Counted from the first letter of the stretch, positions 41,279-49,010 are shown. The stretch: DNA of 64,000 nucleotides from Pelomonas sp. Root1237 (GCF_001425055.1 NZ_LMDK01000016.1:900773-964772), one strand, 5' to 3'. Numbers and translations are program-made. Notes: a model not told the origin generated them from the sequence alone.

Positions 41279-41905
41279 GGATGCGTCTTGGAAGACGTGC
41301 GTGGGCCGGAAGACTGCTTCGGCTGCAAGCTGGCCTGCGCCTCGGCGCGTTCGCTGACAGCTTCCGACCCGTTGCAGCCGCAAGGTCAAGCGTCGCGGGC
41401 GTCCGCAAAGTGCCCAAAGCCGAAATTCGAGATCTGTACCGATAGACGGCCCGACAGCGGCTGCAGTCGTTCGCGTCCCCGAGCTGAGCCCACAGTACGC
41501 GGCACGAACCAGTCATCGACTCATCCGTCCGGTCGCCGTCTTCAATGACCGGTCTCGGGGCTGGTGCTGTCATCCAGCTTTCGTGGGCGGCATGTCGCAC
41601 CGTCAACTGGCAGTCGAATTCGCGACTTTTGGCCCGCCCATCGCGGCCGGGGATGTCGCTGCGAGCCAAGGAACTTGAGCGCGGGGCTGCTCGCTTGCCG
41701 GCACCAGCCCGACTGCTCAAGACATACCCACTTCTAGTTCCTACCCGCGCTCGAACTCTCCGCGTTCATAAACGATGCCCAATATTTCGTCATCCCAAAA
41801 TTTAAGGATAGGGTTAATCTTGGGCGACACAGCTTTCATATTGCGGCATTACAAGCTAAAACATCGCCTGCATCTTAACTGCAATCAACCTACGCGGAGG
41901 ACAAC
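41279..41905. other. Gene-free stretch at the left edge of the AT-richer block
   Basis: 627 bases with no convincing gene. GC falls sharply after about 41720, marking the start of acquired DNA. The last 130 bases are clearly AT-rich and probably hold the promoter of the following cluster, but no clean -35/-10 pair stands out. GGAGG lies at 41896-41900, just before the next gene. Confidence 0.5.
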
Positions 41906-42271
41906 ATGGCAACAGCGCGTCGTGTCAAGACAGACCATTTGATTCAGGCCGATGTTACTGATTCGAAAGCCAAGGCTGGCATTTGGTTTAGTGAGCAAAA
42001 GGGTTTTAAATCAAAGCAGAAGAAGGTCATGGAATGTATCGCGAGCAAGGTCGACTGGATAAAACTTCCCGGTGCGATCTTGGCCATATCGCAGAAGCCC
42101 CATGGCATCGTCGTAATTGCGCCGAATCCGTCCCTTCCAGGAATCATTGTCCTCGCCGATGGAACCACAAAATCAAATACCGAGGCGCTTCAGCGGCGCT
42201 ACACGAAGCTCATTGAGGAATGCACCAAGAGCCTAAGCATCGCCACCGAGAAGACAGAAACCAAGAATTAA
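41906..42271 (+). CDS. 121-residue protein heading the radical SAM cluster; precursor or carrier candidate
   Basis: A small basic protein of unknown family. A strong ribosome site (GGAGG, 5 bases spaced) supports it. Residues 25-45 are lysine-rich (GFKSKQKKVMECIASK), 50-85 are hydrophobic and beta-like (LPGAILAISQKPHGIVVIA), and the last 30 are helical then polar, ending SLSIATEKTETKN. It has two cysteines (in MECIAS and EECTKS). Its stop is 2 bases before the radical SAM gene, so they are co-translated. It could be a substrate with a modified C-terminal tail, a leader-recognition partner, or a structural subunit. Nothing in the sequence decides between these. It lacks the GC bias of its chromosome neighbours. 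Confidence 0.65.
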   Translation: MATARRVKTDHLIQADVTDSKAKAGIWFSEQKGFKSKQKKVMECIASKVDWIKLPGAILAISQKPHGIVVIAPNPSLPGIIVLADGTTKSNTEALQRRYTKLIEECTKSLSIATEKTETKN

Positions 42272-42273
42272 CT

Positions 42274-43581
42274 ATGGACTCGGCGACAAACGATCTTTTG
42301 TGGAGTCGCTATCCGGTCTTCAATTCCGGGAGTGATTATGTTGTTCTTGATGCGGTCTCACTTGAAAGTGTTTTCCTCAACTCAAGTGAAATCAAGTCAC
42401 TAAACACGGGGAAGGATTCGGCAGCCAAACGCCTATTGACTGACCTAGGCTTCTCGGAACTTGAATCCATCAGGACCAACCGCGACTCTTTACTGCTTCG
42501 ACTCGCCAATTCGCAGCCCCGGTCAGCGCCGGAACGAGTATGTGGATTTCGTATTGTCGTCACCGACAAATGCAATATGGATTGCAAGTACTGCTTTGTC
42601 CAGACCAATACAGGCGCCAAAGATATAACCCAAGAGGAACTGGAAGAGGGATTAACCTTCCTTTTTGAGTCTAACCAAGGGAGAGACAAGGTTTCCATTC
42701 AATGGTTTGGCGGCGAGCCAACAATTCGTTTTGATCTAATGGAGTACGGTGACCATTTCGCACGCAGTCTCGCAAAGAAATTAAAAGTGCGCGGAGTACA
42801 ACATACCGTTGTAACAAACGGCATGCGGATAACTGATAAAATGCTCTCCCATTTTAAGGAGTTTCATTATGGCGTCGGAGTCTCATATGACGGCCCGCCC
42901 GCAATCAATCAGAAATATCGAACTCTTTTGAACGGCACTCCGGCCGACTCCAAGATCGAACGAAGCATCTCAAAGCTGGTAGGCGCCGGCGACATATTGG
43001 TTGGATTGAATATAACTCCCACGCCATTTAACTACGACAACCTAAATCAAATAGTCGAGTACGGCATATCATCGCTAGGCGTACGTTTTCTCTATGCAAA
43101 CACACCAATTCCCGCGACTGGGAAATGGGAAGTTCCCGGAAAAATACTAGCAGAAAGCTTAGTGAATGCTCGTTTCAGAGCACTTCAGCTTGGAGGAATC
43201 TTCCACTCTGCAGCTGACCGTGTGTATCAAGCACTAGACGCTCGTCGATCAACTGCATATGAGCACTTGCAAGCTGGCAATGCAATAGTTGCTGCCTTGT
43301 TGCCAGGATCGAAAATAAGCATATGCGATATCAATTGGAAAAATCCGGAATTTATATTTCCAATAGAAAAGATTCGCGCTGACAGTTCGCTGTTAACTCG
43401 ACTAAACAAAGAAATTGCACCGTATAGCGATTGCGAGCGATGTCCGGCCATAGCGGTTTGCGGTGGTCCAAGTAAGAACGACGCATTTCTGACGTCCATT
43501 GATCTCCCAGACCCAGAGTTCTGCGCCTTTTATCAACGATTGGTGGAGTTGGCGCTTTGGGATGACACCGGTCTTCAGTGA
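42274..43581 (+). CDS. SPASM-domain radical SAM protein
   Basis: 435 residues. An N-terminal region of about 90 residues precedes the core and could recognise a substrate peptide. The radical SAM cluster motif TDKCNMDCKYC gives C100, C104 and C107; WFGGEPT (GGE motif) and VVTNGMRI follow. The C-terminal SPASM-type cysteines are C351 (SICDIN), C387, C390, C396 (CERCPAIAVC) and C417 (FC), enough for auxiliary 4Fe-4S clusters. This arrangement is typical of enzymes that modify peptides (RiPP maturases) or act as sulfatase-maturase relatives. It directly follows the 121-residue protein and precedes a second radical SAM enzyme by 6 bases. The AT-rich codon use marks it as acquired. Confidence 0.88.
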   Translation: MDSATNDLLWSRYPVFNSGSDYVVLDAVSLESVFLNSSEIKSLNTGKDSAAKRLLTDLGFSELESIRTNRDSLLLRLANSQPRSAPERVCGFRIVVTDKCNMDCKYCFVQTNTGAKDITQEELEEGLTFLFESNQGRDKVSIQWFGGEPTIRFDLMEYGDHFARSLAKKLKVRGVQHTVVTNGMRITDKMLSHFKEFHYGVGVSYDGPPAINQKYRTLLNGTPADSKIERSISKLVGAGDILVGLNITPTPFNYDNLNQIVEYGISSLGVRFLYANTPIPATGKWEVPGKILAESLVNARFRALQLGGIFHSAADRVYQALDARRSTAYEHLQAGNAIVAALLPGSKISICDINWKNPEFIFPIEKIRADSSLLTRLNKEIAPYSDCERCPAIAVCGGPSKNDAFLTSIDLPDPEFCAFYQRLVELALWDDTGLQ

Positions 43582-43587
43582 GACGAA

Positions 43588-44523
43588 ATGAGACGCACCG
43601 CGCTGATATCTGTTTCCGAACGCTGTCTGATTGGATGTACGTTTTGCTTCCGTGCCGACACTGGTCGAGCGGATATGTCGGTGGCAACGTATTGTCGTGC
43701 GCTTACTCGCTTGCGCGATATTGGTGTAACTGCAATCTGTCTCACTGGCGGTGAGCCGACACATCATCCCCGTTTTGCGCAGTTTGTGCGAATTTCGCAC
43801 CAGTACGGAATTTCCGTATCCATCATAACTGCCGCCGGCAATGCCATTGGTGAAAAGCGGCTAAGTCGCATGTCGCGACTGCTTGAGCGTGTGACCGTAT
43901 CGGTCGACTCCAGTGCCGTTCAGAGAATTGGGCGCACTTCACGAACGCTTGAATCCGGCAAGCGCTTGCTTGAGGCGTGTTCTGAAGCCAACTCTAGAGC
44001 GATTAGCTTCTCTTTTTACGACCTAAATGGCAATGAAGTTGACGACGTATATAGAAGTGTGAAGGCGTCTCAGTGTTCCATCGAGTTCTCGCCTTTGGTA
44101 TTTTCAGAAATTCAAAGGAATAGAAGCTTTCCAAGGTACAGCACCGATGTGCTACGCGAAGATATCAAGAAATTGGAGGCTAGATTTCTTCTACCTGTTG
44201 AATTTTACCAAGGACTCGAGAGTAGATTGAGCCCCCCCTCACAAGGGCGATGTTGCGGCAACCAAATCTACATATCACCTTCTGGTGAAATCCGTCTATG
44301 CCCCTATGGGAAGTCGCTTGCTTCAGTCTTTGACGATCCTGCCACGGTGAAAGAAAATACGAAGAATGGCTACTGCTCTGCAGATGTTAGATGCAGCTTC
44401 TATTGCGCCGCGAAAAATCGGTCTAGTGATAGGCACAATGCGCCTAGCAGGGGTATTCGATGGTCTGAAGGTGCGCCCCCGCAGCCGACACAACGTACAG
44501 CGATTTTTATCGCGAGCGATTGA
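43588..44523 (+). CDS. Second radical SAM protein (MoaA/twitch-like)
   Basis: 311 residues. The motif CLIGCTFC (C13, C17, C20) is at the extreme N-terminus, followed by CLTGGEPTHHPRF (GGE motif) and the beta-strand SIITAAGN. C-terminal cysteines form a second set: C222/C223 (RCCGNQ), C238 (RLCPYG), C263, C270 and C274 (YCSADVRCSFYC), suggesting one auxiliary cluster. IYISPSGEIRLCPYG is typical of such domains. After about residue 276 the protein turns into a tail (KNRSSDRHNAPSRG onward) that lies over the aldo/keto reductase frame and does not look like a fold, so the true end may be near 44415. It acts with the first radical SAM enzyme by context. Confidence 0.82.
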   Translation: MRRTALISVSERCLIGCTFCFRADTGRADMSVATYCRALTRLRDIGVTAICLTGGEPTHHPRFAQFVRISHQYGISVSIITAAGNAIGEKRLSRMSRLLERVTVSVDSSAVQRIGRTSRTLESGKRLLEACSEANSRAISFSFYDLNGNEVDDVYRSVKASQCSIEFSPLVFSEIQRNRSFPRYSTDVLREDIKKLEARFLLPVEFYQGLESRLSPPSQGRCCGNQIYISPSGEIRLCPYGKSLASVFDDPATVKENTKNGYCSADVRCSFYCAAKNRSSDRHNAPSRGIRWSEGAPPQPTQRTAIFIASD

Positions 44524-45172
44524 TTTTGGCTTTCGCTCATTTGATACCGCGCCAATATACTGCCGTGGCATCGCGGAGGAGGCGCTTGGCGATTTTTCCT
44601 CAGAGGATCTGGCGATCACAACCAAGGTCGGCGTTAACATTGATTCCACGCTGCCTCAATTAGCATACTCATACAGCGAGTATTGGAGAAGTCTGGAGGG
44701 GAGCCTGACCAGGCTTCGTAGATCGCGCGTCAGTTGTCTACTTTTGCATAATCCGGCGGTGCGGCAGGTTCGTTCGGATGATTTTCTTCGGTTCTGTGAA
44801 GACGTGTTACGGCAAGGAATTTCTCATCGCGTGGGATGCTCAGTCAGCGATTCTGTAACATTTCGAGCGGCAGTCGAGCTCTCGCCTAATAGCGACATAA
44901 TGATAAGCAGACAGCTCCTGAATAGCCCATCTGTGCTGAATCGAAGCCGCAAAGCCGGTCAACGAATATTGGTCCGTACTCTATTTGGCGGGACATTTGC
45001 TAACACTCCGGCACGTATTCAGCCGTCGCAGATAGTGAATGAGGCGATCAGCACTTTGAGGGGTGCGCTACCCTTAGCTCAGTTGGTAATCGCACCTCAT
45101 ACGCTAATCCAATTGACTGCGTACAAGGATGACATAAATTCTGCATCTCAAGGCGGAATGGCGGGCTTGTGA
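44366..45172 (+). CDS. Aldo/keto reductase-family protein, overlapping the radical SAM gene in another frame
   Basis: 268 residues as drawn; an ATG at 44384 is a second possible start. IGLVIGTMRLAG matches the family's first strand. All four catalytic-tetrad positions are present: D60 and Y65 (FDTAPIY), K87 (ITTKVG), H128 (LLLHNP). So it should bind NAD(P)H and reduce a carbonyl, or work in reverse. The usual family length is 270-330, and the C-terminus may be short. It overlaps the radical SAM gene by about 158 bases in the +1 frame. Removing one A from the A5 run at 44413-44417 would join the two proteins in frame (YCAAK then IGLVIG). It is either a real overlap, a natural fusion with a frameshift, or a base-call error. 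Confidence 0.78.
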   Translation: MATALQMLDAASIAPRKIGLVIGTMRLAGVFDGLKVRPRSRHNVQRFLSRAIDFGFRSFDTAPIYCRGIAEEALGDFSSEDLAITTKVGVNIDSTLPQLAYSYSEYWRSLEGSLTRLRRSRVSCLLLHNPAVRQVRSDDFLRFCEDVLRQGISHRVGCSVSDSVTFRAAVELSPNSDIMISRQLLNSPSVLNRSRKAGQRILVRTLFGGTFANTPARIQPSQIVNEAISTLRGALPLAQLVIAPHTLIQLTAYKDDINSASQGGMAGL

Positions 45173-45915
45173 CAAGGTCACCGCCGGCAACTGACCAACA
45201 TCAATGCTGATTGGTTCCAACGTGCGCATTGAGGCGGCGGATTCACTCGGCGTCCGTTAGTCTCTGGCGCCGAGGCTTAGGCGCAGATACCAACTCAGAA
45301 CCCACGGTCTTGACGGCACGCCCCAGCAGTGCGTGTTGTTCGATATTTGCAGCCGACAGCTTATCCGGGAGGACAAGACCGTATGCCTCTACATGTTCTT
45401 CACCTTCGCACGAGGGCGTCACACTTCCACCCAGACGCCTGTTCAGCCACTGATAGAACACGTCATGGTGCCAGTACGCATGCCTGGCGACAATTTCTGC
45501 GGACGTAGCTCGCCGCGCTCCAGGTCGTTTGATATGGTGCGCTTGCAGACCTTGAGAATTGCCGTGCCGTCGTTGCGAGAAAGCGCTTTGAAAGGAGAGC
45601 TGCCGTTGATCCCGGCCGCACCTCACTCTTTGGTCGGCTGAGGCAAGACCAACTCTCAAGGTCCGGTTCCGGTGGTGGATCAGTCATGCAACTGCGAAAC
45701 CGTCAAACGACCGGTGCTGGCAGCAGCGGTCGATGGGCCGCCGACACTGGATGCCAGCCCCAGCCTCCTGCTGCCACCCGGTCATTTTCGGCTTTGGGCA
45801 CTTTGCTGCCGTCCAATGGCACTGACGAGCGACGGCTCCTGGCCGAGACGTCAAAGGCGGCTAGCCGCGTCGCTGGTCGAGGCGCGCCACGTTGCAGCGA
45901 TGCCCCTTAAGCGCG
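45173..45915. other. Gene-poor stretch after the radical SAM cluster, with integron-like end motifs
   Basis: 743 bases. Open frames exist on both strands, including one of 138 residues on the minus strand (45243-45659) that I cannot assign or support. At 45207-45256, read on the minus strand, GACTAACGGACGCC begins a segment ending CGCCTCAATGCGCACGTTGG, reminiscent of a degenerate attC. At the right end CCCCTTAAGCGCGTTAGAC (45903-45921) contains a GTTAGAC core heptamer. Confidence 0.4.
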
Positions 45916-46521
45916 TTAGACCCTGCGGCGGATCCTCATGGCAAACATCAGACCTAGGCCGGCACACAGTAGAGCATGGGGTGCAACTTCCGGAACTGCG
46001 CTGACTCTGAAGCCAAGGTCCATTTCGTCGAATCGATTCCAGTTGCCGTTGAATCCCTGCCATTCTTCGCCGAGTGGCATCGGGGCGCCCCATGGCATGT
46101 TTGCCGAAAACCAGTCAGGTGAGCCAATTGTGAAACCGTATGTGCCCGCAGGGACTGTCCAGTTCAAGCCATCAATGCCTACCCATTCGAAGGGGAAGGC
46201 CGTTGGCCAGGGAACGGCTTTCTGCGCGCTGAAGAGCAGCGGGCCGGTGGGCGAACCCGCGTGCAACGACACGGCCAAGGTGCCACCTCCGAACACGACC
46301 ATGAAGCCTTCGATTGCCGAGATAGTCGTTGATGAACTGACCGAGAACGACCCCCCAGTACTCACGGTTCCGTCTAACACGGATCCAAGGGGCGAAGACG
46401 TGGATCCAACGCCCGTGTTAGCCGGTTGACCCGTGTCCACGACGTACACCGCGTTCGCGGCGCCGGCAAAACTGAGTAGCAAGGCCAGCGCACCACAGCT
46501 CTTCACCGCAAACCCATTCAT
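45916..46521 (-). CDS. PEP-CTERM-like secreted protein
   Basis: 201 residues. Signal peptide MNGFAVKSCGALALLLSFAG to ANAVY. A Gly/Ser/Thr-rich beta body has two long Ser/Thr stretches and WPTAFPFEWVGIDGLNW. The C-terminal VPEVAPHALLCAGLGLMFAM then RIRRRV is the PEP-CTERM pattern with a VPEVAP variant of the usual VPEPxxxxL. GGGAG lies 7 bases before the ATG at 46521. Its TAA stop is embedded in GTCTAAC, the reverse complement of a GTTAGAC integron core site, as in many gene cassettes. Confidence 0.7.
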   Translation of the reverse strand: MNGFAVKSCGALALLLSFAGAANAVYVVDTGQPANTGVGSTSSPLGSVLDGTVSTGGSFSVSSSTTISAIEGFMVVFGGGTLAVSLHAGSPTGPLLFSAQKAVPWPTAFPFEWVGIDGLNWTVPAGTYGFTIGSPDWFSANMPWGAPMPLGEEWQGFNGNWNRFDEMDLGFRVSAVPEVAPHALLCAGLGLMFAMRIRRRV

Positions 46522-46739
46522 TGCATTTCTCCCTGCGTTTTGTGAGGCACGCAGAATACGACGCAGTCGAACTAGGGCATCCTGCGCACACCCCCCTGAC
46601 TCGAGTGTTCGCAGCGCGCGCCGGCCCAATGCGACGCAGTGGGCGATTTCGCTGTAAAGCCGACGTGGGGAGTGTCAGCCGATCCAGACCGGCTTGAAGG
46701 TCTCGTTGGCCTTGCGGGCTTCGAGGGACCATCTCCCCT

Positions 46740-46922
46740 TCATGTGTGCGTGCTTCCGCGGGGTTCCCTACGAAGTGCCGTCGATGCAGCGGTCGCATAT
46801 GCATCGTGGGCCGCTGAGTGCGTATCGAACGGGCCGATGCACAGCAGTGTTTCGTCGTGAGGAACTACGGCGACCCAGCGGTCGCCTTCGGGCACCACAC
46901 CGATTACTTGGGCGGACATCAT
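46740..46922 (-). CDS. Possible 60-residue protein
   Basis: A weak candidate. The frame reads VIGVVPEGDRWVAVVPHDET, then a GPFDTHSAAHDAYATAAS segment. The order beta-strand, aromatic, GPF-x-T, A-A-x-x-A-Y-x-x-A resembles the AP2/integrase-like DNA-binding fold in miniature. The ribosome site is weak. Its TGA overlaps an ATG that opens a 22-residue peptide ending at 46674. It lies in the 480-base gap between two accessory genes; nothing else is seen there. Confidence 0.35.
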   Translation of the reverse strand: MMSAQVIGVVPEGDRWVAVVPHDETLLCIGPFDTHSAAHDAYATAASTALRREPRGSTHT

Positions 46923-47000
46923 CTCGGCCGGATTTGCCTCGGCCTGTTCGTCGGTCCCACATCGCAGGTTGACACGGCGGTTACGCTCGATACTCCTTTC

Positions 47001-47690
47001 ATGACCACCCTGGTTTTGTTGCCTGGCATGGATGGCACAGGCTCGCTGTTCGATCCCCTCGTAGAGGCGCTAGCTGGCAAGGTTCAAGTCGAGGTGGTGC
47101 GGTATCCATCGGCGCCACCGGCCGGGTATTCCGTACTTGAGCGCTTGGCGGAAGCAAGTCTGCCGGCCGAGGGTCCGCTGATCTTGTTGGGTGAATCCTT
47201 CTCCGGCCCGATTGCCATCTCACTGGCAGCGAACCACCCCGGGAGGGTCATGGGCCTCATCCTTTGCTGCACCTTTGTACGCAACCCGTACCCCGGTCTA
47301 TCGCTGCTCAAGAACCTGACCGGGCTGGCCCCCGTCAAGGTGGTGCCCACGCGCCTTGCAGCGGCCCTGCTCTTGGGACGGTTTGAAACGCCAAAGCTCC
47401 GAGCTGCTCTTGGCTCAGCGCTGGCGGGTGTTTCAGCCACAGCGCTGCGATCACGTTTGAAGGCCGTTCTCTCGGTCGATGTCGCTTCGGACTTCGGTCG
47501 GGTCAGCGCTCCCATCCTGTACCTGCGTGCGAGCGAGGACCGCGTGGTCCCGGCCTCAGCGGGGGACATCATTCGTGCCATTCAGCCTGCGGCGCGCGTG
47601 GTGCAGATCTCTGGCCCACATTGCCTTCTTCAAGCGGCGCCAACCGAGGCTGCAAGGGCAATCCAGCAGTTCGTGCAGGCCGTCGGGTAG
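47001..47690 (+). CDS. Alpha/beta hydrolase
   Basis: 229 residues. VLLPGMDGTGSLFDPLVEAL is the oxyanion-hole region. LLGESFSGPIAI is the nucleophile elbow (G-E-S-F-S-G, Ser near residue 75). The acid is in ASEDRVVP and the His in GPHCLLQAAP. This fits a small esterase or thioesterase-like hydrolase with no signal peptide; the substrate cannot be inferred. The ATG at 47001 opens the first strand directly; a longer frame from 46818 has no domain in its added part. It lies in the accessory region with no operon partner. Confidence 0.8.
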   Translation: MTTLVLLPGMDGTGSLFDPLVEALAGKVQVEVVRYPSAPPAGYSVLERLAEASLPAEGPLILLGESFSGPIAISLAANHPGRVMGLILCCTFVRNPYPGLSLLKNLTGLAPVKVVPTRLAAALLLGRFETPKLRAALGSALAGVSATALRSRLKAVLSVDVASDFGRVSAPILYLRASEDRVVPASAGDIIRAIQPAARVVQISGPHCLLQAAPTEAARAIQQFVQAVG

Positions 47691-47858
47691 CCTGTGTGGC
47701 CGCTTCCGGCGTATTCGCGAACGGGTAGTCCCGGCCAGGAGCGGTCTGTGGTCAATGTCGGCTTGCTGTCGCGTCGACAGTCCAGCGGACACCTTGATCG
47801 CATGCTCGAATGTTGGGCAGAAATCGTTAACGATCCACCTACAACAAGTTAGACCCGA

Positions 47859-48653
47859 ATGAACCTCCTTCGCCTTTCGGATCTCAGCAGCGCCGACCTT
47901 CTCAAGGTCTGGGATCTTGTGGCCAGTCCGCCAACGCAGTTGTCTGGCACGGTCGCTTGGTCCTTCGAGGGTAACGGCATCCGGACTCGAACGACTTTCA
48001 TCCAGGCGTTCCGGGAACTTGGGTTGGCCTTTACTGAGCTGCCAAACTTCCTCAAGACCGGCGAGCGAGCTTGCGACCTAGCCGGTTACCTCGATCCGTT
48101 CTATGACATTTACGTGATCCGCGAGTCCAATCACGCGCGCCTGGCCGAATTCACAGAGGCCACTTGCAGGCCCGTGATCAACGCAATGTCCAATGTCGGC
48201 CACCCGTGCGAAGTACTCACGGATGCCTACTACGTCCACTCAAGACTGCTTCCGCTGGAGCGAGCTCGAATCTGCCTCTGGGGGCCGCCAACGAACGTGT
48301 TCCGTTCTTGGCATGAATTGGCCGGCGTACTCGGATTCACTGTCACGCACGTTTGCGACGCTCAGTTCCATGAACCAACGAGAAGCGTGACATTCACGGA
48401 GGAGTTGCCACCATTTGCCGACATCGTGATCACCGACGGGTGGCCCGCCGGTGCGGAAGGCTCTCGTAGGTCACTGACAGAAGCGCTCCTTGCCGAGATG
48501 GGTTCGCCCAAGCTGCTACCCACCCCGCCGTTCGCGATTGGGCGTGAACTTTCATTCGATCCGCTGGCGTACTCGGGCTTTGTTGGCTATCAGCAAAAGG
48601 AGCTCCTCTTGCCCGTACAAAGAGCCCTAATGCGGTATGCACTAAATGGCTAA
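47859..48653 (+). CDS. Degenerate aspartate/ornithine carbamoyltransferase homologue in an integron-like cassette
   Basis: 264 residues, shorter than the usual 300-330. The N-terminal domain shows FEGNGIRTRTTFIQAF where enzymes have F-x-x-x-S-T-R-T-R, and HPCEVLTD where they have HPCQ-x-L-x-D. The second domain lacks the HCLP or HPLP loop (TDGWPAGAEGSRR sits there). Both Arg of the phosphate loop remain, but the Ser and the Gln are lost. I infer that it does not carry out normal carbamoyl transfer. Its TAA lies in GGCTAAC at the start of an attC-like site, and GTTAGAC (47848-47854) lies just before the ATG. Confidence 0.7.
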   Translation: MNLLRLSDLSSADLLKVWDLVASPPTQLSGTVAWSFEGNGIRTRTTFIQAFRELGLAFTELPNFLKTGERACDLAGYLDPFYDIYVIRESNHARLAEFTEATCRPVINAMSNVGHPCEVLTDAYYVHSRLLPLERARICLWGPPTNVFRSWHELAGVLGFTVTHVCDAQFHEPTRSVTFTEELPPFADIVITDGWPAGAEGSRRSLTEALLAEMGSPKLLPTPPFAIGRELSFDPLAYSGFVGYQQKELLLPVQRALMRYALNG

Positions 48654-48724
48654 CCCTTCCACCGAGCGGACGTCTTCCAACGCGCTTCGCACGCTTCCAG
48701 CCGCCGCTCATGTTCAACGTTGAA
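48649..48724 (+). other. attC-like integron recombination site
   Basis: Starts GGCTAACCCTTCCACCGAGC and ends GCCGCTCATGTTCAACGTTG, then AAC. This follows the plan of Xanthomonas/Pseudomonas-type attC sites (AACCCTTCCAxCGAGxGGAC at the left, CTCATGTxxAACGTT at the right). GAGCGG pairs with CCGCTC. The left AAC contains the upstream gene's stop and the right end is a GTTGAAC heptamer. The inner stem is weak. Supported by sequence pattern only. Confidence 0.6.
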
Positions 48725-49010
48725 CGGCAGCTTTCTGGCTGTTCACTTCACCAAGGCCGACTTCCGCTCTCGGTCGGGATCACCCGTTCGACCCGTCAGG
48801 CAGCAGACATTCGTCGCGGGTTGGCGCGGTGAGCGGCGGCCAGGCCGCCTGGGTGGCTGCTTCACCCGCGACAGCGGTCATCACAGGTGGCAAGTCGACA
48901 GGTGAGCCGATGACGGCTTCGTGGCCTGGACCGAGAAGCCGGCTACTGGCCGCGAAAGACGGCAGTCGCTGCAAAGCGGTCTCTGAGCAGCCGCCACGAG
49001 CCACACCCGC
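48725..49010. other. Spacer between the integron-like cassette and the regulator gene
   Basis: 286 bases in which I see no gene, RNA or clear repeat. GC rises again toward the downstream regulator, so this is where acquired DNA meets chromosome. Confidence 0.5.

Follow-up and report, generated by a model that had tools for sequence, protein, structure and literature searches.

A conserved, most likely RiPP-like cluster of a small protein, two radical SAM enzymes and an aldo/keto reductase, with a possible link to aminoacyl-tRNA synthetases

The question raised by positions 41906-45172 of a 64,000-nucleotide stretch of the Pelomonas sp. Root1237 genome (NZ_LMDK01000016.1:900773-964772; this whole stretch is hereafter the window) is whether four tightly packed genes make up a previously unrecognised system that modifies a small protein, as an initial annotation proposed, and, if so, what such a system produces. 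The genes encode a small basic protein, a SPASM-like radical S-adenosylmethionine (SAM) enzyme, a second radical SAM enzyme (rSAM2) and an aldo/keto reductase (AKR). We find that they represent a real, conserved and unnamed system, most likely one akin to the pathways for ribosomally synthesized and post-translationally modified peptides (RiPPs). The features of the cluster, all on the plus strand, are as follows.

41906-42271, plus strand: small basic protein, the proposed substrate; 121 amino acids, family-less, with relatives that adjoin the SPASM gene
41906-41998, plus strand: part of this gene that encodes the N-terminal tail (residues 1-31), the candidate core and modification site; conserved despite predicted disorder
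42274-43581, plus strand: SPASM-like radical SAM enzyme, 435 amino acids; Pfam Radical_SAM match, CNMDCKYC motif, C-terminal cysteines
43588-44523, plus strand: rSAM2, second radical SAM enzyme; Pfam Radical_SAM match, CLIGCTFC motif
44366-45172, plus strand: AKR; Aldo_ket_red match (4.7e-15), tetrad D60/Y65/K87/H128

The case for a functional unit is carried by co-occurrence in other genomes, on which the initial annotation had staked its proposal. When 84,980 species genomes were scanned with rSAM2 as the key, 29 loci emerged, from Streptomyces, Nocardiopsis and genera close to them; in 27 of these, the genes for the small protein, the SPASM-like enzyme and rSAM2 are present in this order, and the remaining two retain only fragments of the SPASM gene. 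The trio is followed by a gene for a JmjC/cupin-type protein of about 261 amino acids (the JmjC branch) and, in nearly all loci, by a convergent gene for an archaeal-type aspartyl-tRNA synthetase (AspRS). In a second branch, found in the genomes G1364, G1399, G1393, G1452 and G1128, it is the AKR gene that follows; the first four, all Streptomyces, carry the complete set of four genes in order, with the AKR tetrad, and rSAM2 was not found in the G1128 cluster. The tree of SPASM-like enzymes joins the window with the AKR branch at support of 100/99, the window branch itself being long. The five genomes of this branch come from further sampling, in which 8 of the 298 Streptomycetaceae genomes and 16 of the 239 Streptomyces genomes had a relative of the SPASM-like enzyme. 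Because the set recurs in another phylum, a chance grouping of genes is excluded.

Within the phylum of the window, the small protein was searched in 300 order-level genomes and the SPASM-like enzyme in 61 related and 398 phylum-level genomes, with strict thresholds; in about 700 sampled genomes, only the window's own genome was recovered and no convincing relative was found (one borderline match, E 0.008), and the remaining genomes sampled from the genus have no relative of the SPASM-like enzyme at E<=1e-20. Pattern scans with the SPASM protein alone gave nothing in genome or viral contigs, and the relatives surfaced only through an alignment of rSAM2 to a remnant carried by a Streptomyces plasmid. 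This remnant, 57 residues of rSAM2 located among IPT/TIG-domain genes of Streptomyces scopuliridis (L006:8001-8168), is a sign of gain and loss of the cluster. Plasmid relatives were not found for the small protein, nor, at E 1e-5, for the AKR. Another plasmid locus, from Streptomyces sp. NBC_01727 (L003:5715-12756), encodes two radical SAM enzymes, a 66-residue cysteine-containing peptide, an MFS transporter and a class II synthetase-like protein; with 24% identity and different partners, it was set aside as a relative, and it is possibly a second synthetase-linked peptide cluster. Matches in Bradyrhizobium, Mycetohabitans, rhizobia and Campylobacter belong to other systems. Several Streptomyces versions of the cluster have phage genes for tail completion and major tail proteins at their borders, in varied positions, and the first two cluster genes are also found on three IMG/VR contigs (for both, L020:359-1994, L024:15528-16742, L143-L145).

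The gene for the small protein has a GGAGG ribosome-binding site and its product an isoelectric point of 9.66. No family could be assigned to it, and a known unrelated function, which would have spoken against the initial annotation, did not turn up: Pfam gave nothing, NCBIfam a single chance-level match far below the cut-off, and comparison of its profile with solved structures only chance matches. Its relatives encoded beside the SPASM gene are 42-53% identical. AlphaFold (AF2) confidently models residues 25-110 as a beta-alpha-beta4-alpha domain, with a predicted local distance difference test (pLDDT) score of about 91 at residues 31-110, and residues 1-20 as disordered (pLDDT about 41); the tail ahead of the domain comprises residues 1-24. 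The domain resembles TBP, phosphohexomutase domain 4, BamC and KA1 domains; Foldseek returned nothing below E 0.001, so that TBP-like denotes a predicted fold resemblance only.

Across 40 distinct sequences, residues 11-31 have a mean identity of 93%, with 9 of the 21 positions invariant (H11, L12, A15, D16, S20, K23, G25, W27 and E30). A second invariant group maps to a hairpin, from N74-P-x-L-P-G to G86. The K23-AGI-W27 sequence of the window protein conforms to a K23-xxx-W27 pattern found in all 40. Because conservation in this disordered stretch exceeds that of most of the folded part, the modelled N-terminal tail is a likely modification site; the core would then lie N-terminally, followed by the recognition domain. 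Of the 40 sequences, 35 have D at residue 19, namely, those of the window and of every member of the JmjC branch; the other 5, from the five AKR-type Streptomyces, have G.

The adjacent enzyme is a radical SAM protein by its Pfam match (Radical_SAM, 6.9e-14) and its intact CNMDCKYC motif at residues 100-107. The SPASM part of its earlier label rests on a C-x2-C-x5-C...C tail (C387, C390, C396 and C417, plus C351); the Pfam SPASM domain (PF13186) has no match in the protein, and TIGR04085 matches nothing in the window's genome. The nearest NCBIfam models are those of peptide maturases, and the scores fall far below their cut-offs: PapB at 97 bits vs 340, nif11 at 86 vs 519 and HxsB at 79 (78.5) vs 370; the quinohemoprotein amine dehydrogenase maturase is also among the better family matches of the protein and its orthologue. 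The solved structures closest to the model are anSME, CteB, ChlB and TigE, and the actinobacterial orthologues are 46-48% identical. A RiPP recognition element (RRE) had been suggested for the N-terminus, and the AF2 model of the first approximately 85 residues does show an RRE-like beta-beta-beta-alpha-alpha-alpha order at 15-79, at a pLDDT of only about 30-47; the order of strands and helices agrees with the suggestion, at low confidence.

The expectations for the other two enzymes hold up. In rSAM2 (Pfam Radical_SAM, 2.5e-11), a protein of the MoaA/PqqE/viperin-like type with extra C-terminal cysteines, the CLIGCTFC motif at 13-20 is intact and C222, C238 and C273 are conserved among orthologues that are 33-40% identical. 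Its last approximately 30 residues are probably not conserved, because the homologues end that much earlier. The AKR belongs to its superfamily (Aldo_ket_red, 56 bits vs a cut-off of 24), with D60, Y65, K87 and H128 intact; the counterparts in the same place in five Streptomyces clusters are 34-38% identical (E 1e-34 to 1e-38) and retain the tetrad. Judging from the homologues, the AKR start may lie slightly later than called.

What the cluster makes is best approached through the genes that accompany it in the relatives, that is, oxygenases, YcaO/TfuA and aminoacyl-tRNA synthetases, none of which the initial annotation foresaw. In the AKR-type relatives, one or two genes for PhyH-like oxygenases are added; in one of them, G1364 (locus L095, in the window's subclade), YcaO and TfuA of the type that thioamidates McrA glycine are encoded with PhyH beside the two radical SAM genes. 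An AspRS gene is located 1.7-5.5 kb away in 43 of the 45 JmjC-branch stretches fetched (some genomes were fetched twice); of the two without it, L013 is cut by the end of a contig and L035 is decayed. These AspRS comprise two subfamilies that are only 40% identical, non-orthologous and located in different positions. In the AKR branch, a fused bacterial-type glycyl-tRNA synthetase (GlyRS) is encoded 4 kb from the cluster in G1364 and 10 kb from it in G1399, on different sides. The usual enzymes of Streptomyces are an AspRS of the bacterial type and a GlyRS that is dimeric. Wherever a synthetase is present, D19 goes with AspRS and G19 with GlyRS. We found no paper on synthetase-linked radical SAM peptide clusters.

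A putative extra synthetase with the same specificity suggests a RiPP-like product that inhibits the matching enzyme, and a modified peptide is favoured because the JmjC, PhyH, YcaO and TfuA tailoring genes fit it. As in RiPP systems, a putative precursor gene is linked to modifying enzymes, in the 27 loci and in the AKR-type loci. The genes, their co-occurrence, the conserved tail and the association with synthetase genes are observed; from this context we infer the substrate role, the chemistry, the product and the target. The small protein would be the ribosomal substrate, with its C-terminal TBP-like domain as the recognition part and the unstructured tail (approximately residues 1-31) as the part modified; the SPASM-like enzyme and rSAM2 would introduce radical modifications into the tail, possibly at K23/W27 or around position 19, and the AKR would reduce a carbonyl created in the process. 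In the Streptomyces relatives, Fe/2-oxoglutarate oxygenases and, once, YcaO/TfuA would perform further steps. Once released, the product, possibly an antibiotic, would inhibit the synthetase specific for the amino acid encoded at position 19 (Asp or Gly), and self-resistance would come from the extra synthetase gene. We give about even chances to the whole proposal, that is, that the four genes form one conserved RiPP-like unit whose modified small protein yields an inhibitor of the synthetase matching residue 19; the modification role is supported by context, and the inhibitor role is a testable proposal.

Several observations weigh against this scheme. The match between residue 19 and synthetase amounts to few independent events and follows the tree, and three of the five G19 clusters lack a GlyRS in the fetched sequence; given that the D/G distinction follows the tree and that GlyRS occurs in two related genomes only, the link is a strong lead, not proof. 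Archaeal-type AspRS2 has a wider distribution than the cluster (61 vs 8 of 298 Streptomycetaceae), and so occurs in other contexts. The window's own genome encodes neither an archaeal-type AspRS (only weak matches of 29-33% identity, in apparently ordinary synthetase frames) nor a detectable JmjC relative. The window also lacks an adjacent protease or transporter, as the initial annotation had already observed, and in the relatives a permease is nearby only sometimes. The evidence for an RRE comes from a low-confidence prediction, and a precursor with a folded C-terminal domain and an N-terminal core is unusual. AspRS2 genes (L084-L094, L099-L101) are sometimes located beside JmjC fragments. 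In favour of the scheme, solo AspRS2 genes exist, two of which (L085, L086) adjoin decayed JmjC remnants, as expected if resistance outlives production.

Other explanations have to be weighed against the same facts. The small protein could be a functional protein (a carrier, a scaffold or a subunit bearing a cofactor) on which the two radical SAM enzymes leave a permanent modification, along the lines of quinohemoprotein amine dehydrogenase or of PQQ-type cofactor building, a reading that we consider unlikely but worth keeping in mind: the TBP-like domain is folded with high confidence, the protein is conserved through most of its length, and the amine dehydrogenase maturase is among the better matches of the SPASM protein. 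However, the clusters contain no conserved partner enzyme subunit, few parts of the protein are conserved as strongly as its disordered tail, and the extra synthetases and YcaO/TfuA better fit a product. The presence of synthetase genes beside nearly all JmjC-type clusters also accommodates a scheme in which they supply aminoacyl-tRNA as a building block (PEARL-like or AcmF-like), with Asp or Gly attached to a scaffold protein and modified there; synthetase-like enzymes can indeed be biosynthetic (PMC12945691). Nevertheless, no gene for a LanB/PEARL-like ligase is seen among the conserved neighbours and AspRS2 is kept without the cluster, as resistance predicts, which makes this scheme improbable in our estimate.

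The tail genes at several Streptomyces loci, the three IMG/VR contigs with the first two genes, and the matches of pVip and viperin models to the radical SAM cores could point to phage-related or anti-phage cargo in which the radical SAM enzymes make a viperin-like antiviral nucleotide. We find this highly improbable and set it aside on the score, which is that of a generic radical SAM core (53 bits vs the NCBIfam viperin cut-off of 180); moreover, PADLOC has no model for the small protein or the AKR, and viperin systems need neither a dedicated small protein nor a second, SPASM-like enzyme. A different concern is that the window cluster was acquired recently by horizontal transfer and is incomplete or silent. 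The GC content (0.49 vs 0.70), the lack of a SPASM relative in the sampled congeners and the absence from the window of the relatives' oxygenases and synthetase are compatible with this, but the four intact frames, conserved catalytic residues and tight spacing argue for selection, and we regard it as quite improbable.

Returning to a RiPP-like unit that acts on the small protein, the maturases that it most resembles are the RRE-bearing radical SAM/SPASM enzymes (PapB, nif11-like, HxsB; CteB, TigE, SuiB), with which the SPASM-like enzyme shares the radical SAM core, a C-terminal Cys motif, a low-confidence RRE-like N-terminal secondary structure and a small protein encoded next door; unlike them, it scores far below every curated cut-off, has an incomplete SPASM cysteine set, and is paired with a 121-residue protein with a folded C-terminal domain, not with a short leader-core peptide. 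HxsABCD likewise combines two radical SAM enzymes with a small protein, and there are weak HxsB, HxsC and HxsC4 matches; in contrast, the small protein matches neither HxsA nor HxsD, the partners here are the AKR and synthetases, and the HxsB score is far short of its cut-off. The K23-xxx-W27 pattern and weak TIGR04080 matches of rSAM2 recall the KxxxW of streptide, although these matches span only about 80 residues of the radical SAM core; a streptide-like Lys-Trp link at K23/W27 would, by analogy, be speculation. To our knowledge, ribosomally made inhibitors of AspRS or GlyRS are rare, with microcin C as the known case for AspRS. A Burkholderia thailandensis cluster of the thioamidated RiPP type combines a fused tfuA-ycaO gene with two radical SAM genes (PMC8120280); in the window's subclade, only L095 shares this likeness, neither YcaO nor TfuA being seen in the window or in four of the five relatives of the AKR type. 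In the ascamycin cluster, the extra alanyl-tRNA synthetase AcmD confers self-resistance, an established pattern (PMC12945691) that the putative second synthetase beside biosynthetic genes in the relatives resembles. Microcin C is reported to be a ribosomal peptide that inhibits AspRS (PMC9239234), the target proposed here for the D19 products. Unlike both, no nucleotide-transferring ThiF enzyme is seen, and the window lacks a synthetase.

The window cluster itself represents the AKR branch in a minimal or incomplete form, because it consists of the four-gene core with D19, without an archaeal-type AspRS, JmjC, PhyH, YcaO or TfuA; the last three are absent from the entire 64 kb. A separate hidden precursor is not evident either, with no convincing small open reading frame (ORF) at 41290-41905 upstream. 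ORF calls agree with the described layout of same-direction genes with tight gaps or overlap: 2 bases separate the small protein gene from the SPASM gene and 6 the latter from rSAM2, and the rSAM2 and AKR frames share 158 bases. The reported AT-richness is also apparent, the four genes having a GC content of 0.47-0.52 (about 49% overall) vs 0.70-0.73 next door and about 70% in the genome; third-position GC is flat in the four genes, and in the upstream AraC-type gene it reaches 0.93 at an overall GC of 0.727. This composition and the absence from sampled congeners make import of the cluster probable.

Reduced GC (0.59-0.62) continues beyond the cluster, at 45173-49000, where an alpha/beta hydrolase, a PEP-CTERM-like secreted protein (45916-46629, minus strand) and an ornithine carbamoyltransferase-like protein are encoded; this stretch and the cluster are possibly one imported island. 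The last of these genes (47859-48653, 2.7 kb downstream of the cluster) scores 76 bits vs a cut-off of 306 and has altered motifs, GIRTR and HPCE, and could be a paralogue with another role. Beside AKR-type clusters of the relatives, two loci (L127:1583-3478 and L096:2941-5124) encode family-less proteins of 632 and 728 residues with zinc-ribbon-like cysteines and no detectable relation to each other.

Taken further, the data prompt a bolder and rather doubtful proposition: a new RiPP-like class in which an N-terminal tail carried on a folded protein gives rise to synthetase inhibitors whose target is set by residue 19 (AspRS for Asp19, GlyRS for Gly19), with a foreign synthetase of the same specificity protecting the producer. 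Even without the synthetase reading, the combination of a conserved disordered tail and folded domain with two radical SAM enzymes and a reductase of their own is new to radical enzymology as a set of partners. If the synthetase reading is true, the clusters would represent a genetically compact and unnamed family of natural products derived from a protein, present in actinobacteria and one genome of another phylum, in which the linked synthetase would be a built-in clue to the target, making the mode of action directly testable, and the one-residue target switch would make the small protein a programmable scaffold.

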